Below, in pieces: positions 31,027-37,371 of a stretch of 64,000 nucleotides of DNA. Source of the DNA: Ideonella sp. MAG2. Its GTDB lineage: Bacteria > Pseudomonadota > Gammaproteobacteria > Burkholderiales > Burkholderiaceae_C. The translations under genes were made by a program, and so were the position numbers. The stretch covers positions 160,069 through 224,068 of the forward strand of contig PTEU01000001.1 of the NCBI GenBank assembly GCA_004359425.1. Reading direction: 5' to 3'. Each line of letters begins with the position of its first letter. Within the stretch, counting starts at the first letter, position 1. The notes below the pieces were generated by a model. The model was not told the origin of the DNA and did not search any database. It saw only the letters and a program-made list of their open reading frames with translations.

Positions 31027-31980
31027 TCAGCGCCGCAGCCGCATCTCCCCCGGCAGCGGCACCGAGCGCTTCAACACCCCCTCGGCCAGCCACAGCGCGC
31101 TTCGGGCTGCGCGTTGGGCCACATAGGGCAGGGGGAGCTGCTGATAGTCGTCGTTAAACACCTCAAAGCTGTAGTCGCCGCGGTAGCCCATGCTGTCTAG
31201 CGTGCGCACCAGTTGGGCCAGGGCTTGGCTGTGCACGCCTTCGCCCGGAAAGACCCGGAAGTGGCGCGCCGTCTCCAGCCTTTCCTGGGGCGTGCGCGTC
31301 TCTTGCCACATGAAGTCGGAGAGCTGCACCAAAAAGATCTTGCGCGGATCCACCTCTTGCAGCACGGCTTGCGGGGTGTCGGTGGCAAACAGGTGATAAG
31401 AGTCGACCCCCAGCCCCAGGTTGGGCATGTCAGCGCGGCAGACCACGTCCCACGCGTCTTGGGTTTCGTTGAGATGGCGGCCCCAGGAGAGCGCCTCGAA
31501 CGCCACCTTGATGCCCAGCGGCAAGGCCAACATGGCCAGCTTGCGCAGGTCGCGGGCCATGGCTTGGCGGTCGTCGCTGGCGTGCGGGGAGGTGGAGCTG
31601 CAGGCCAGCAGCACCTTGGCGCCCAAGGCGCTGGCCATCTGGATCATTTGTTGGGCGATGTCCACCTTGTAGCTGTGCAGGTGGCCGCTCAGGCCTTCAA
31701 AGTCGCGCAGCACCTGAAAGCCCGTCACCCGCAGACCACTGGCCTTGACGGCGGCCACCGCCGCCTCAATGCCCTGCGGGTGGCCCACGATGTCGCGCGC
31801 GGCCAGCATCACCTGGCCAAAGCCCGCCGCTCGGATGGCGGCGAGCTTGGCCTCCAGCGGCCCGGCCAGGGTGATGGTGTCCATGCCAAAGTCGCCCATG
31901 TGCGCGCTGTGAGGGGGGCTGGCTGCCCTCAGGGTGGCAAGCGAGGCAGGGCTGGCCCAGAGGGCGGTGGAGGGGGTCAT
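31027..31980 (-). CDS. 3-dehydroshikimate dehydratase-type TIM-barrel protein (QuiC N-terminal half)
   Basis: A 317-residue xylose-isomerase-like TIM barrel matching the catalytic half of QuiC-type 3-dehydroshikimate dehydratases, which form protocatechuate. Metal-ligand segments are in place: KVAFEALSWG, GLGVDSYHLF, FLVQLSDFMW and DYSFEVFNDDY. In Pseudomonas this domain is fused to an HPPD-like domain; here that domain is the separate upstream gene. ATG 31980 is favoured over GTG 31989 because GAGG of the upstream stop region is at the right distance. Product is expected to feed LigAB. A sugar isomerase role cannot be fully excluded. Confidence 0.8.
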   Translation of the reverse strand: MTPSTALWASPASLATLRAASPPHSAHMGDFGMDTITLAGPLEAKLAAIRAAGFGQVMLAARDIVGHPQGIEAAVAAVKASGLRVTGFQVLRDFEGLSGHLHSYKVDIAQQMIQMASALGAKVLLACSSTSPHASDDRQAMARDLRKLAMLALPLGIKVAFEALSWGRHLNETQDAWDVVCRADMPNLGLGVDSYHLFATDTPQAVLQEVDPRKIFLVQLSDFMWQETRTPQERLETARHFRVFPGEGVHSQALAQLVRTLDSMGYRGDYSFEVFNDDYQQLPLPYVAQRAARSALWLAEGVLKRSVPLPGEMRLRR

Positions 31981-31990
31981 GGCGTCCACC

Positions 31991-32869
31991 TCAGCGCGGG
32001 TCGAGCACCAGCTCGAAGGTGGGGCCTTGGTCGCTGGGGCGGGTCAGCGCGCCGCGTGCTTCGCTGTGCACGCCCACCTTGGACTCCACAAACTCCACGC
32101 CACGGGCCTTCAAGGCCTGGACAGACGCCAGCACATCGGCTGTGCCAAAGGCGACGCGCTGCAGCAGCTCTTCGGTGTCCACATCGGCAGCGTCGGGCAC
32201 GGGCTCGATCAACTGCCAGTACAGGGTGCCGCAAGGGCTGGCGAGGATGCGGCCTTGTGGCAGCACGCCAAAGCTGTGGCCGGGCGGCAGGTCGGCAAAG
32301 CCGAACAGCTCGCCCCAGAACGCCATCCAGTCGTCGATGCGGTCAAAGCCGATGTACTGCACCAGGCCAAACAGATGCAGCCCGGCCAGCGCTGGGGGGC
32401 GCGGGTCCACCGTGGGGATGGGCACGAAGTCCACGTCGTAGATGGAGAACTCGCCGACCCGGTCGACAAAGTAGATCAGGCTGCTGCCCACGCCGTGGAT
32501 GGCGGGAATGTTCAGCTCCATCACCGCCACCTGCGTGGGCACGGCCCAGGCACCCAAATCCAGCACGCGCTTGTAGGCCCGGGCGGCGTCCTGCACCCGG
32601 AAGGCCACGGCGGCGATGGTGGCCCATTCGGGCAGCGGCGGCTCATCAGGTGAGCGGTGGGCATTGACGATGATGTTCATGTCGCCTTGGCGGTAGAGCA
32701 TCACCTCGCGCGAGCGGTGGCGCGCCACGGGCCGAAAGCCCAGACGTTCCAGGCTTTGCCCCAGGGTTTGGGGTTTGGCCGTGTGGTACTCGATGAACTC
32801 AATGCCTTGCAGGCCCAAGGGGTTGGGCATGTCGCCCACAGATTCACGAGTGGCGGTGTGGGGGCTCAT
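31991..32869 (-). CDS. HPPD-like VOC-family protein (QuiC C-terminal half as a separate gene)
   Basis: A 292-residue protein with two vicinal-oxygen-chelate repeats, similar to 4-hydroxyphenylpyruvate dioxygenase and to the C-terminal half of QuiC dehydratases: LQGIEFIEYHTAKPQTLGQSLERLGF, ALAGLHLFGLVQYIGFDRIDDW and a final FELVLDP. The segment where dioxygenases carry the second iron-ligand histidine (HIAF type) reads QRVAFGTADV, so that histidine appears replaced by arginine. It is followed ten bases later by the TIM-barrel gene and preceded by aroE. Its own activity is uncertain; an accessory role in dehydroshikimate dehydration is inferred. Confidence 0.75.
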   Translation of the reverse strand: MSPHTATRESVGDMPNPLGLQGIEFIEYHTAKPQTLGQSLERLGFRPVARHRSREVMLYRQGDMNIIVNAHRSPDEPPLPEWATIAAVAFRVQDAARAYKRVLDLGAWAVPTQVAVMELNIPAIHGVGSSLIYFVDRVGEFSIYDVDFVPIPTVDPRPPALAGLHLFGLVQYIGFDRIDDWMAFWGELFGFADLPPGHSFGVLPQGRILASPCGTLYWQLIEPVPDAADVDTEELLQRVAFGTADVLASVQALKARGVEFVESKVGVHSEARGALTRPSDQGPTFELVLDPR

Positions 32870-32885: not shown

Positions 32886-33349
32886 TCAGTCGTGAAGGCA
32901 GGACACCGCCCGCAGCTCTTCCGGCGTGGCAGTGCCAAAGCCGAAGAACTCCAGGTAGGCGGGGATCATTTCGTAGAGCATGTCGCTGCCCACTTGGATG
33001 GGGCAGCCCTTGGCTTGAGCCTGTGCCAGCAGGGATCGCCCAGCAGGCTGCCGTCCGGGCGAACCAAGACGGCGTTGCAGGCCCCGGCGGCTTTGGCGGT
33101 GGGGGTGACTTCGTCCATCAAGGCCAGGGTGCTGACCTTGTGCGGCATGGTGACCAGCGCGCCTCGCGCATTGGTCAGGCGGCGCAGCACGGCGATGGTG
33201 TCGGCAAAGGCTTCGGGCTTGACGCCCATGGGCATGACCACAGCGTCAATGCCTTTGCTGTCGAACCAGGGGTTGTAGATCAGCGGCGCTTTGAAGTTCT
33301 CCGTCGGATATCCGAGATGCGCGATGAGCGTGGTTTTGCCGCTGATCAT
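32886..33349 (-). pseudogene. aroE: aroE-like shikimate/quinate dehydrogenase, NAD(P)-binding domain deleted with frameshift
   Basis: The N-terminal substrate domain is intact: MISGKTTLIAHLGYPTENFKAPLIYN, then VVMPMGVKPEAF, LVTMPHKVSTLALMDEV and AGACNAVLVRPDGSLLGD. Frame is then lost. The C-terminal piece continues in another frame as LLAQAQAKGCPIQVGSDMLYEMIPAYLEFFGF and ends at 32886. The junction is near 33033-33036. About 120 residues are missing, including the whole Rossmann domain, so no dehydrogenase activity is possible. Position in the TRAP/QuiC cluster points to a catabolic shikimate or quinate dehydrogenase, not the biosynthetic one. Confidence 0.88.
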
Positions 33350-33361
33350 GGTGCCTCATCC

Positions 33362-34360
33362 TTACTTGCGCAGCTTGGCCAGTTCGGCCTGCAACTCAGC
33401 CACGGTGCCGGCAATGGCCGCACCATGCTTCTCGATCACGGGCTTGAGCTTGTCGCGCAGCTTGGCTTGCTCGGCAGCGCTCAGCTCGGTGATCTGCATG
33501 CCGGCCTTCTTCAGCTCGGCGGCGTCGTCGGCGGACTTGCTGCGGTTGACCTGGCGCTGGTAGGTGCTGGTCTCTTTGGCCGCGTCTTGCAGGACCTTGC
33601 GCTCTGCGTCAGACAGCGTGTCCCAGACCTTCTTGCTGAAGATGATGGACTGTGGGTTGTACTGGTGGTTGCTCAGCACCAAGTTCTTCTGCACTTCATA
33701 AAACTTGTTGGCCAGGATCACAGACAGCGGGTTCTCTTGGCCGTCAATGGCCTTTTGCTCCAGACCAGCATAGACCTCGGGGAAGGCCATGGGCGTGGGA
33801 TTGGCACCCAGGGCTTTGACCCAGTCAATGTTGATGGCATTGGGGATGACGCGCAGCTTCAGGCCGGCAATGTCTTCCACCGTGTTGATGGGCTTTTTGC
33901 TGTTGGTGATGTTGCGAAAGCCCAGCTCGGTGTAGGCGAGGCCAACGATGCCTTTCTCGGCCAGCTTGGCGTGCAGCTTCTGGCCAAAGGGGCCGTCCAC
34001 GACGGCGTCGGCTTCTTTGGCGTTGGCGAACATGAAGGGGAAGTCAAAGACTTCAAAGTCCTTGACCTGTGAGGCCAAGATGCCGGAGTTCAGCATCACA
34101 AACTCGATGGTGCCGCCTTGCAGGGCCGACACATTGGCCGCGTCACCTCCCAGCGTGCCACCGGGGAAGACATTGACCTTGAGCTTGCCGCCGGACTTGG
34201 CTGCCACCAGTTCAGCAAACTTCTGCGCCCCGATCTCCAAAGGATGTCCCTTGGGGTTTTGCAGCGCAAACTTGAAGGTGCGCTCTTGGGCCTGCACCGC
34301 GCCGCAGGCGAGCAGGGCAGTCATGGTGGCCACGAGGGCGCGACGGGTAAAGCGGATCAT
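33362..34360 (-). CDS. TRAP transporter solute-binding protein, DctP family
   Basis: A 332-residue periplasmic binding protein with a signal peptide (LVATMTALLACGAVQA) and the DctP core: FKFALQNPKGHPLEIGAQKFAELV, KVNVFPGGTLGGD, LKLRVIPNAINIDWVKALGANPTPMAFPEVYAGLEQKAIDGQENP (split here for length), YEVQKNLVLSNHQYNP. The conserved arginine that clamps carboxylates is in GLKLRVIPN. Together with DctM and DctQ encoded upstream on the same strand it should import an organic acid; quinate or shikimate is inferred from the neighbours. Confidence 0.93.
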   Translation of the reverse strand: MIRFTRRALVATMTALLACGAVQAQERTFKFALQNPKGHPLEIGAQKFAELVAAKSGGKLKVNVFPGGTLGGDAANVSALQGGTIEFVMLNSGILASQVKDFEVFDFPFMFANAKEADAVVDGPFGQKLHAKLAEKGIVGLAYTELGFRNITNSKKPINTVEDIAGLKLRVIPNAINIDWVKALGANPTPMAFPEVYAGLEQKAIDGQENPLSVILANKFYEVQKNLVLSNHQYNPQSIIFSKKVWDTLSDAERKVLQDAAKETSTYQRQVNRSKSADDAAELKKAGMQITELSAAEQAKLRDKLKPVIEKHGAAIAGTVAELQAELAKLRK

Positions 34361-34439: not shown

Positions 34440-35678
34440 TCAGTTGGCAAACCATTTGGCAGGCCCAGTGACCAACCAAGGGAACAGCACCATCAAGAAC
34501 ATCACGGTGAACTGGGCGATCATGAAAGGCAGGACACCACGCGTCACCTCGTCCATCTTCATCTTGCCCACACCAGCGACCACGTTCAACACGGTGCCGA
34601 CGGGGGGCGTGATCAAGCCAATGGCGTTGTTGATGATGAACAGCACGCCAAAGTAAACAGGGTCAATGCCCGCGGCTTTGATCACGGGCATCAGGACGGG
34701 GGTCATGATCAAGATGGTGGGCGTCATGTCCATGGCCGTGCCCACGGCAATCACCAACACCATGATGGCGATGAGCAGCAAGGTCTGGTTGCCCATGAAA
34801 GGCTCCAGCAGCGCAATCATCTTGCTGGGAATGTCGGCCACGGTGATCAGCCAGGCTGAGACCATGGCGGCGGCCACCAAGAACATGATGACCGCGGTGG
34901 TCTTGGCGGCACTGACAAACACCTCATGCATCTGGTGCAGGCTCAGCTCGCGGTAGACCACGGTGGAGACCAGCAGGGCGTACACCGCCGCCACCACCGC
35001 CGCCTCGGTCGGGGTGAAGACGCCGAACTTCAGGCCCACCACCACGATGACCGGCAGGACCAAAGCCCAGGTCGCTTCTTTGAGCGCGTTCAGGCGTTGG
35101 ACCGTGCTGGCCTTGGGGGGCGGTGTGATGCTTTCAGACTTGGCCACCCACCACCAGGCTACGGCGATGGACAGCCCCATCAGCAGACCCGGCACGATGC
35201 CGGCCAAGAACAGCTTGCCGATGGACACATTGGCTGCCACGCCAAAGATCACAAAGCCGATAGAGGGTGGGATGACCGGCGCAATGATGCCGGCCGAGGC
35301 GATCAAGCCACCCGCGCGGGCTTTGTCGTGCCCGGCCGCCACCATCATGGGCAGCAGCAAAGAGGCCAGGGCCGCTGTATCGGCCACGGCTGAGCCGGAG
35401 AGGGCGGCCAGCAGGCAGGCCGCCACAATCGCCACAAAGCCCAGGCCGCCGCGGCGGTGGCCCACCAGGGTGAGCGCCAAGTTGACGATGCGGCGCGAGA
35501 GGCCGCCCACATTCATGATCTCGCCAGCCAGCATGAAAAAGGGCACCGCCAGCAGCGGAAAGCTGTCGGCCCCGTTGATGACGTTCTGCGCGAGGATCTG
35601 CGCATCGAACAAGTCCAAGTGCCACATCAAGGCCACGCCCGAGAGCAGCAGCGAATAGGCGATGGGCACCCCCAGCAT
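34440..35678 (-). CDS. TRAP transporter large permease, DctM family (5' end frameshifted)
   Basis: The 412-residue frame has the multi-helix DctM permease: LGVPIAYSLLLSGVALMWHL, LAVPFFMLAGEIMN, GGLGFVAIVAACLLAALSGSA, GIIAPVIPPSI and TPPVGTVLNVVAGVGK. The expected start, ATG 35704 with MTVFIFLGS, is in a different frame; it joins the body only if one base, or a short stretch, is restored near 35680. As written, translation would have to begin at ATG 35678, losing half of the first helix. This is a small lesion or a sequencing error. Confidence 0.85.
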   Translation of the reverse strand: MLGVPIAYSLLLSGVALMWHLDLFDAQILAQNVINGADSFPLLAVPFFMLAGEIMNVGGLSRRIVNLALTLVGHRRGGLGFVAIVAACLLAALSGSAVADTAALASLLLPMMVAAGHDKARAGGLIASAGIIAPVIPPSIGFVIFGVAANVSIGKLFLAGIVPGLLMGLSIAVAWWWVAKSESITPPPKASTVQRLNALKEATWALVLPVIVVVGLKFGVFTPTEAAVVAAVYALLVSTVVYRELSLHQMHEVFVSAAKTTAVIMFLVAAAMVSAWLITVADIPSKMIALLEPFMGNQTLLLIAIMVLVIAVGTAMDMTPTILIMTPVLMPVIKAAGIDPVYFGVLFIINNAIGLITPPVGTVLNVVAGVGKMKMDEVTRGVLPFMIAQFTVMFLMVLFPWLVTGPAKWFAN

Positions 35679-35716: not shown

Positions 35717-36277
35717 TTATTTCTTCTTGAAGGTTTGGCTGCGGTCCAGGTGCAGCTCGTCGATCTGCGCCAGGTCTTCCGACTCTTGCACCATCACCAA
35801 ATCTTTCTCACTCAATCTGCCGGTTAAGGTGCGCCAAAAATCTTGCAGCAGCATCACCCCGGTGGAGGCCGCAAACACCACGCCCGAGGCATAGAAAATG
35901 GCGGTGGAGGCACCGGTGACGGGGGCTTCGACCTCCCAATTGATCTCGGCTTGCTGCCAAGCGCCGCGCAACAGCAGCCACGTCACCCACAGCATCAGCG
36001 CTTGGCCCACGCCCAGGCAAAGGCGCTTGCCCACCGGCCCCAGGCGAGAGGTGAGCATGTCCGAGCCCAGATGCGCGCGCTCGCGCACCGCCACCACCGC
36101 GCCCAAGAACGTCAGCCAGACAAACAGCCAGCGCGACAGTTCCTCCGATTCGGTGATGCCGCTGTTAAAGGCATAGCGCATCACCACATTGCCGAACACC
36201 AAGACCACCATCAGGGCCAGCATCAGCACCAGCAGCCACTCCAGGGCGCGGCAGTATTGGTCGAGGATTTTGTTCAT
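35717..36277 (-). CDS. TRAP transporter small permease, DctQ family
   Basis: A 186-residue membrane protein with four helices: LEWLLVLMLALMVVLVFGNVVMRYAF, a second around WLFVWLTFLGAVVAVRERAHLG (the family's RxxxHxG-like loop), a third LGVGQALMLWVTWLLLRG and a fourth ASGVVFAASTGVMLL. It supports the large permease. The charged tail DLAQIDELHLDRSQTFKKK is longer than usual. Start ATG 36277 has GGAGCC upstream on the minus strand. It is the first gene of the transporter-aroE-quiC unit, followed by dctM. Confidence 0.9.
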   Translation of the reverse strand: MNKILDQYCRALEWLLVLMLALMVVLVFGNVVMRYAFNSGITESEELSRWLFVWLTFLGAVVAVRERAHLGSDMLTSRLGPVGKRLCLGVGQALMLWVTWLLLRGAWQQAEINWEVEAPVTGASTAIFYASGVVFAASTGVMLLQDFWRTLTGRLSEKDLVMVQESEDLAQIDELHLDRSQTFKKK

Positions 36278-36330
36278 GGGGGCTCCGGCTGTGCCACGGC
36301 TAGGCGGGTGCATCCCGTCTGCCAGAACCC

Positions 36331-36510: not shown

Positions 36511-37218
36511 TCACAGGCGCTGGACGAAACGGAACACCATCTCCACCACATGCTCGCGGCGGGCGGCCACCTCGGCCGGGGTGTCTAGGCTGCGTTTGAA
36601 GATCGCGCCAAAGGTGTGGCGGTTGGCCACATTGAAGAAGCACAGGGCCGAGATGGACATGTGCAGGTCTATCGCGTCGATATCGGGCCGAAAGACCTTG
36701 GCCTTGACGCCGCGCTCGTAGACGGCGCGCACCGCATTGATGACCGGCACGTTCAGCGCCTGGATCACCGAGGAGCGGTTGATGAACTCACCGCGGTGCA
36801 TGTTCTCGTTCATCACCAAGCGGATGAAGTCGGGGTGGGCGAGTTGGTAGTCAAAGGTAAAGCCCACCAAGGTGCGCAGCGCTTGCTCGGGCGGCAAGTC
36901 TTCCAGGTGAAGCTCGGCCTCAATGCGGCGTATGCGCGCATAGGCGGCCTCTAGCACCTTGATGTAGAGCCCCTCTTTGCTCTCGAAGTAGTAGTAAATC
37001 ATCCGCTTCGAGGTGCGGGTCAGGGCGGCAATTTCGTCAATGCGTGCCCCCGCCAAACCCTTGTCCGCAAATTCCGCCGTGGCCACCTCCAGGATGTCGG
37101 CCATGGTGCGCTCGGGGTCGTTGGTGCGCGAAGGCTCCGCCTTGGCCGGGCGGCCCGGCTTCTTGGCGGCAGGGGGTGTGCGGGGGGCGGCTGGCATGGA
37201 ATGTACGAAATAGGCCAT
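36511..37218 (-). CDS. TetR-family transcriptional regulator of the TRAP/quiC cluster
   Basis: A 235-residue TetR protein with an unusually long basic, proline-rich leader (PAAPRTPPAAKKPGRPAK) before the helix-turn-helix: ILEVATAEFADKGLAGARIDEIA, TRTSKRMIYYYFESKEGLY. The C-terminal ligand domain (TLVGFTFDYQLAHPDFIRLV, MHRGEFINRS) is complete. It is next to and upstream of the TRAP operon on the same strand, and probably represses it. ATG 37218 is used; ATG 37197 is possible and would place the AATGTACGAA motif in its leader, which would suit autoregulation. Confidence 0.85.
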   Translation of the reverse strand: MAYFVHSMPAAPRTPPAAKKPGRPAKAEPSRTNDPERTMADILEVATAEFADKGLAGARIDEIAALTRTSKRMIYYYFESKEGLYIKVLEAAYARIRRIEAELHLEDLPPEQALRTLVGFTFDYQLAHPDFIRLVMNENMHRGEFINRSSVIQALNVPVINAVRAVYERGVKAKVFRPDIDAIDLHMSISALCFFNVANRHTFGAIFKRSLDTPAEVAARREHVVEMVFRFVQRL

Positions 37219-37371
37219 TTTCCCCCAAGCATAGCCGCCTTTGTTCGCTGCGACGGCTTTGCACACGGGCAACATGGGCGTGTCGCTCTGCCGGGTCACC
37301 CTGCCGTTATGCTTGGCAGACACCACACTCGGAGACAGCCGCCATGACTGACACCTTGCTCACCCGTCGCA

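Follow-up and report, generated by a model that had tools for sequence, protein, structure and literature searches.

What does a protein with the HPPD fold do beside a dehydratase gene once its iron site has been replaced? The question is raised by HPL, which is encoded in a 64,000-nucleotide stretch of Ideonella sp. MAG2 DNA (contig PTEU01000001.1, positions 160,069 to 224,068 of the forward strand), hereafter the window. HPL and its neighbors in the window are the following.

31027..31980, minus strand: DSD, a QuiC-type 3-dehydroshikimate dehydratase, xylose-isomerase-like TIM barrel (family scans, alignments)
31991..32869, minus strand: HPL (P0001), an HPPD-fold protein of 292 aa with its iron site replaced (complete ORF, ATG start)
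32901..33032, minus strand: C-terminal remnant of a shikimate/quinate dehydrogenase-like gene, in another frame (comparison with a relative)
33035..33349, minus strand: N-terminal part of the same dehydrogenase-like gene, with an internal deletion (family scan, comparison with a relative)
33362..34360, minus strand: DctP, TRAP transporter solute receptor (family scan)
34440..35678, minus strand: DctM-like TRAP large permease (named by position and sequence)
35717..36313, minus strand: DctQ-like TRAP small permease (named by position and sequence)
36511..37326, minus strand: TetR-family regulator (family scan)

Fold and former iron site of HPL

HPL has the two-domain VOC fold, as found by both Pfam and Foldseek. 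It matches Pfam Glyoxalase_5, the HPPD N-terminal domain, with an E value of 5.9e-41, and its second half gives a weak Glyoxalase_4 match that is barely above the Pfam cut-off. The best Foldseek match of its AlphaFold2 (AF2) model (pLDDT 89.3, pTM 0.88) is the P. fluorescens HPPD 7x8e, with a TM score of 0.79 and about 31% identity in the structural match. By sequence against solved structures, HPL scores higher with 1cjx, also P. fluorescens HPPD (134 bits), than with the QuiC fusion 5hmq (78 bits). It lies far below the cut-off of the NCBIfam HPPD model TIGR01263 (85.1 bits, cut-off 277). HPL (77.7 bits) and the window DSD (162.4 bits) are also both below the 1200-bit cut-off of the NCBIfam QuiC model NF042435; the 162-bit match of the DSD runs across the N-terminal half of that model.

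We aligned HPL with HPPD and located the residues that now stand at the former iron site and pocket.

32366..32368, minus strand: Gly168, at HPPD iron ligand H161 (alignments; model strand 165-172)
32357..32359, minus strand: Gln171, at HPPD H164, a non-ligand (alignments)
32252..32254, minus strand: Gly206, at HPPD pocket residue Ser201 (alignment)
32213..32215, minus strand: Gln219, at HPPD Pro214 (alignment)
32156..32158, minus strand: Arg238, at HPPD iron ligand H240 (alignments; model strand 235-243)
32012..32014, minus strand: Glu286, at HPPD iron ligand E322 (alignments; model strand 285-289)

The original prediction had placed QRVAFGTADV where HPPD has an iron-ligand histidine motif. 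This is borne out by the 1cjx alignment and by 34 HPPD rows, in which the segment occupies the Q-H-[IV]-A-[FLC] position. The loss of H240 is thus real, but the predicted count of one lost histidine was short. H161 is lost too, with HPPD 'DHLTHN' aligned with 'FGLVQY', and Glu286 is the sole ligand retained, not two of three. The alignment therefore rules out a single-ligand loss. The two histidine positions were read from the pairwise 1cjx alignment, and E322, which lies past its end, was placed by multiple alignment. In the AF2 model, Gly168, Arg238, and Glu286 are on three separate strands of the C-terminal barrel.

The replacements are invariant. We used MAFFT to align the window protein with 96 members of its clade and 14 HPPDs from the same family. 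The positions of H161, H164, H240, and E322 are Gly, Gln, Arg, and Glu in 97/97 clade rows, whereas the HPPDs have the three histidines in 14/14 and the Glu in 13/14. We enlarged the alignment with 80 named-genome loci (the best 80 of 563 relatives) and 20 HPPDs from other families. The same four residues were present in 177/177 HPL rows, or 159/159 distinct ones; the HPPD rows had all three histidines in 34/34 and the Glu in 33/34. In other families of the order, the set is complete in 8/8 HPL rows, which also have Gly206 and Gln219. Two loci, L050 (in-frame stop in HPL) and L143 (a fragment), were kept out of the HPL alignments.

The substrate pocket has changed as well. We take Ser201, Pro214, and Asn216 of P. 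fluorescens HPPD to correspond to Ser267, Pro280, and Asn282 of the Arabidopsis enzyme. Ser201 has become Gly206, Pro214 has become Gln219, and Asn216 has become Ile or Val221, each in 159/159 distinct HPL rows; Gln239, which we match to Arabidopsis Gln307, remains Gln in 122/159. The excerpted text of PMC6750108 describes a Ser267-Asn282-Gln307-Gln293 network in the Arabidopsis pocket and reports that alanine mutants at Ser267 and Asn282 lowered efficiency about 12-fold and about 160-fold. Among the Ser, Asn, and Gln307 positions scored, the Ser and Asn members of this network are absent from HPL. The iron triad given in the same excerpts (PMC6750108) is likewise absent, with Gly, Arg, and Glu in its place in all 159 distinct rows.

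Parts of the structure around the site are also gone. HPL lacks the C-terminal lid helix of HPPD: a median of 7 residues follows the Glu, against 36 in HPPD, and the HPL model stops three residues past its last strand. A long loop is missing too, since the spacing from R238 to the Glu is 46 to 54 residues, against 76 to 82 from H240 to the Glu in HPPD. We also looked for another histidine at the metal site. In the 97 clade rows, no histidine is invariant on the pocket strands, which rules out a relocated metal histidine. The N-terminal domain contains the two near-invariant histidines, H51 (97/97) and H125 (96/97). Of the others, H165, which lies on a pocket strand, is conserved in no more than 80/97 rows, and H268 in 81/97.

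Dioxygenases of the HPPD type require the full iron-ligand triad. HPL retains a single ligand of the three, has a positive charge where another stood, and lacks the lid, so iron-dependent oxidation is very unlikely. The doubt about oxygenase activity in the original prediction is therefore supported more strongly than it was put, by the pocket as well as by the ligands. An annotation of clade members as HPPD on the basis of similarity would be misleading, since they are unlikely to act as dioxygenases in the tyrosine pathway. Judged by its sequence, the site does not look decayed, because an invariant set has replaced the ligands. If the site were unused, it would be expected to drift; its fixation suggests that it does something.

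Gene pairing, distribution, and origin

The likely DSD start is ATG 31980, which follows a GAGGTGG overlapping the HPL stop; the mechanical ORF start is GTG 31989. We take E134, D165, Q191, and E239 to be the DSD metal ligands, going by the fold. We scored eight residues, R64, E134, D165, H168, Q191, S206, R210, and E239, from the QsuB/QuiC1 active-site list in the excerpted text of PMC7442255, leaving out its Leu97 and Leu136. The window DSD retains all but S206, which is Ala, as it also is in 15/20 fused QuiC rows.

A DSD-type gene lies downstream of HPL in 97/97 family loci (L044 and L065 are among those at contig ends) and in 80/80 named loci, these being the best 80 of 563 on contigs partly shared with the family set. 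In other families it is in the HPL gene row in 8/8, with aroE in between at L267 and L268. The operon pairing of HPL with the dehydratase gene is therefore well supported. At L144 (G020), a related single-domain DSD with 48% identity and all four ligands sits beside aroE-like genes, and no HPL was found in the 10-kb stretch around it. The barrel can thus stand alone.

We clustered the neighbors of HPL at 176 loci. These counts are lower bounds, because our home-made ORF caller recovered HPL itself in 148/176, and the named and unnamed sets overlap. AroE-like genes were present at no fewer than 73 loci, TRAP (DctM) at 54 or more, type II dehydroquinate dehydratase at 44 or more, and PcaB and a PcaR/PcaU-type regulator at 31 or more each. 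Parts of a transporter that we presume to be a Liv-type ABC system occurred in up to 43, again as a lower-bound count. In an NCBIfam scan of one representative per cluster, dehydroquinate dehydratase and PcaB were above their cut-offs, PcaR/PcaU was slightly short (270 of 285 bits), and AroE was well short (145 of 252). These neighbors show that the HPL-DSD pair belongs to quinate/shikimate/protocatechuate catabolism, with varying transporters. In the window, the dehydrogenase-like gene between DctP and HPL (32901-33349, minus strand) is missing about residues 114 to 237 of a relative, and its two parts are in different frames.

HPL is present in 98/299 genomes of the window's family, the window's own included, at 53% identity or more (51% on recomputing). 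The next matches, below the HPL clade, have at most 44% identity, and the 14 of them that were retrieved are HPPDs of 368 to 389 aa. In an order-level sample, 11/200 genomes match at an E value of 1e-60 or better, 8 of them from six other families. Among the rows listed for a class-level set of 369 genomes, which include just one genome from another family of the order, the window's family was the sole source of such matches (2 genomes). Hosts among the best 80 of 563 relatives are the Burkholderiales Acidovorax, Roseateles, Sphaerotilus, Polaromonas, Rhodoferax, Caldimonas, Comamonas, and Azohydromonas. The pairing of HPL and dehydratase genes is maintained across many soil and water bacteria.

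With HPL as the query, the only HPPD-fold sequence elsewhere in the window's own genome (91% complete) was short and interrupted by an in-frame TAG (L143, G000:C2:1612679-1612894). Of the 97 family loci, one has an in-frame stop within HPL. At this locus, L050 (G197), the DSD is intact, and elsewhere in the genome there is a QuiC-type match. This suggests that genomes that also have QuiC can do without HPL.

We then asked where HPL came from. In a tree of 20 HPL, 28 HPPD, and 15 QuiC rows, HPL forms one clade with 100/100 support, and it groups with the HPPDs of the window's family at just 72/38. A clade of HPL plus QuiC is not rejected (AU p, 0.467); the AU-tested tree had 20 HPL rows, and another tree had 35. 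E217 and E234 are common to HPL and HPPD and absent from 15 QuiC halves. The family scores and these two retained glutamates point to an HPPD ancestor, as far as sequence comparison goes, and a common origin with the QuiC half is also compatible with the tree. A simple split of QuiC is rejected on the reversed gene order, the closer HPL scores to HPPD, and the two glutamates, a point that the tree leaves unsettled. The 15 same-family QuiC C-terminal halves have H161 in 15 and H240 in 11. The other four, a fused-QuiC subclade (L150, L154, L155, and L157), have Gln at H240, and L154 and L155 also lack the Glu at E322. Ligand loss in dehydratase-side HPPD-like units therefore happened more than once.

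Partner barrels that lost metal ligands

Among 152 distinct single-domain barrels encoded after HPL, 12 lack one or more of E134, D165, Q191, and E239 (L040, L045, L054, L061, L064, L066, L088, L207, L216, L219, L239, and L241). L262 is a further such dead barrel (E134V, E239Q). The 12 distinct cases were among 24 DSD rows flagged as incomplete, of which 16 were real (12 distinct and 4 copies), 6 were mis-started and intact, and 2 were at contig ends (L065 and L227). The L219 barrel has no stop in its aligned part by tblastn, and its ORF closes at 290 aa. Directly upstream of HPL and the dead barrel, L064 has a complete QuiC-type fusion ORF (629 aa), and L066 has a QuiC-like ORF with an odd end. 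Fused QuiC proteins retain all four ligands in 20 rows (18 distinct). In a quick tree of 111/170 barrel rows, in which L262 is absent, the losses take four changes by parsimony, three of them forced by well-supported branches.

In intact pairs, the barrel is closer to the window's barrel than HPL is to the window's HPL, by 1.1 to 20.0 points in 150/150 rows (137 distinct). In dead pairs the order is reversed in 12/12 distinct cases, the margin being 0.8 to 22.3 points; L088 and L040 are borderline. The HPLs of dead pairs are 55 to 66% identical to the window's, within the 51 to 75% of intact pairs. We estimated dN/dS by NG86, in which dS is probably underestimated for these G+C-rich genes. Dead barrels gave 0.17 to 0.32 in three Rhodoferax-type pairs and 0.35 to 0.56 in four others, compared with 0.06 to 0.17 in four intact-barrel pairs. 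The HPLs of those dead pairs gave 0.07 to 0.11 (Rhodoferax-type) and 0.23 to 0.36 (the four others). Thus, where the partner barrel has lost its likely metal ligands and evolves faster, HPL keeps its site and its usual conservation. The comparison of dead with intact barrels suggests weaker yet still purifying selection on dead barrels, at least in the Rhodoferax-type lineage. The dead barrel of L241 was modeled as a confident TIM barrel (pLDDT 91.7; closest to 5hmq, TM 0.84), from an input alignment that contained intact relatives.

A QuiC-type match was present in 6/7 dead-partner genomes of the family sample and in 8/90 other HPL genomes (Fisher, 2e-5), in rows that are not phylogenetically independent and with contig ends truncating two partners among the 90. 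However, QuiC does not take over whenever a barrel dies. None was found in the 5 named genomes from the Rhodoferax-type lineage with dead barrels (L207, L216, L219, L239, and L241), whereas 3/11 named genomes with an intact partner had one; pooled, the counts are 6/12 dead-partner and 11/101 other genomes (p 0.003). A type II dehydroquinate dehydratase query had no match in 4/5 of the Rhodoferax-type dead genomes, some of which are metagenome assemblies of unstated completeness. The loss of the partner's metal ligands at 12 distinct loci shows that HPL can perform its conserved task without an active dehydratase.

Candidate roles and known counterparts

The computation establishes the fold of HPL, its ligand loss, the invariance of its site, its operon pairing, and its persistence beside ligand-less partners. 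The explanation we favor, to which we give about an even chance, is that HPL is the partner subunit in a QuiC-like module of protocatechuate/quinate/shikimate catabolism that is split in two and reversed in order; it would lack metal and probably bind a ligand. HPL would no longer be an iron dioxygenase and would serve as the trans-encoded counterpart of QuiC's HPPD-like half, its iron site and pocket having been swapped for the presumably metal-free set Gly168, Gln171, Gly206, Gln219, Arg238, and Glu286. Most likely it would complex with the adjacent QuiC-type TIM barrel, as its consistent operon pairing and the precedent of QuiC suggest. Its most likely ligand would be a carboxylate of the quinate/shikimate-to-protocatechuate route, with Arg238 as a putative anion clamp and Gln and Glu side chains for the hydroxyls. 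We infer that HPL would stabilize or tune the barrel.

The precedent is QsuB. The excerpted text of PMC7442255 states that it was still unknown what the HPPD-like half does in two-domain dehydroshikimate dehydratases and then proposes oligomerization; the excerpts of both PMC7442255 and PMC9324987 propose that this half is necessary for oligomerization and stability. According to the former excerpts, full QsuB is mainly an octamer, and the barrel alone is mainly a monomer. Without the HPPD-like half, kcat drops from 60.8 to 23.4 per s, Km is halved, kcat/Km changes little (63.3 versus 49.5), and the product no longer inhibits the enzyme-substrate complex (PMC7442255). The oligomer fractions were similar in activity, and oligomerization by itself gave no rise (PMC7442255). 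By analogy, HPL may act in trans like this half. However, it survives beside dead barrels, so such action cannot be all that it does, and ligand-less partners at 12 distinct loci argue against a role limited to tuning the dehydratase.

The original prediction had proposed a structural role beside the dehydratase. It was right about the neighbor, a QuiC-type dehydratase gene with its scored residues kept except S206, but a merely structural role is not established. As a pure scaffold, HPL would only hold the dehydratase together, as proposed for the QsuB C-terminal half, and an Arg-Glu salt bridge would close its pocket. The operon pairing and the single Arg opposite a single Glu at the former metal site suit this reading. 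We nevertheless consider it unlikely, because the invariance extends to Gly168, Gln171, Gly206, and Gln219, which makes carboxylate binding more likely than an Arg-Glu pair that holds the fold, and because HPL is conserved as usual where its partner lost metal ligands.

A speculative extension, which we regard as doubtful, is that HPL and its barrel form a two-subunit, metal-free sensor or enzyme of protocatechuate metabolism derived from two metalloenzymes. The iron site would have been lost once, in the clade ancestor, and the barrel metal site several times, with the function in the HPL pocket and not in the dehydration of 3-dehydroshikimate.

HPL might instead be an enzyme that needs no metal and acts in the protocatechuate/quinate route, such as an isomerase or lyase that works via Arg238 and Glu286, with the barrel as its support where dead. 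Its former active site does hold a polar invariant set, about four lineages have kept HPL after losing the dehydratase site, and pcaB lies directly behind the dead barrel in L216, L239, and L241. The lid that closes the HPPD active site is gone, however, and to our knowledge the pathway has no missing reaction that HPL would obviously fill; we judge this reading improbable. Metal binding through other ligands, such as Glu286 with a Gln or a distant His, is very improbable: Glu286 is in all rows, but the pocket strands have no invariant His or Cys, not even H165, and Arg238 puts a positive charge into the site. That HPL is a gene in decay, as the internal deletion in the window's aroE-like gene might hint, is hardly credible for a complete ORF with 75% identity to its nearest relatives, a site invariant in all rows, dN/dS of about 0.05 to 0.36 in 13 pairs, and a single in-frame stop among the family loci.

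We return to the favored reading, a metal-free partner subunit. Here the HPPD-like unit has a gene of its own, and its site is rewired. It can thus be studied by deletion, expression, and assay independently of the dehydratase, and the lineages that lost the dehydratase site and kept the HPPD-like unit offer a natural reverse test. In the open-licence literature, we found no description of a metal-free VOC pseudoenzyme or separate HPPD-like dehydratase subunit that matches HPL.

HPL resembles P. fluorescens HPPD (1cjx, 7x8e) in its fold, its Glyoxalase_5 N-terminal domain, and its iron-site Glu. It differs in that both iron histidines have become Gly and Arg, the pocket Ser, Asn, and Pro are replaced, and the lid and long loop are gone. 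VOC proteins of the bleomycin-binding type hold a ligand in a metal-free VOC fold, and HPL would resemble them in having this fold without metal, but they belong to a different pathway and have a different domain number. The HPL-DSD pair is like QuiC1/QsuB (5hmq) in combining a QuiC-type TIM barrel with an HPPD-like unit in a similar catabolic setting. In QuiC the two are one chain with the DSD first, whereas here they are two genes with the HPPD-like one first, in the window and at the loci examined. The pairing of barrel and HPPD-like unit is known from QuiC, and HPL with its DSD is a split, order-reversed, iron-free form of it.
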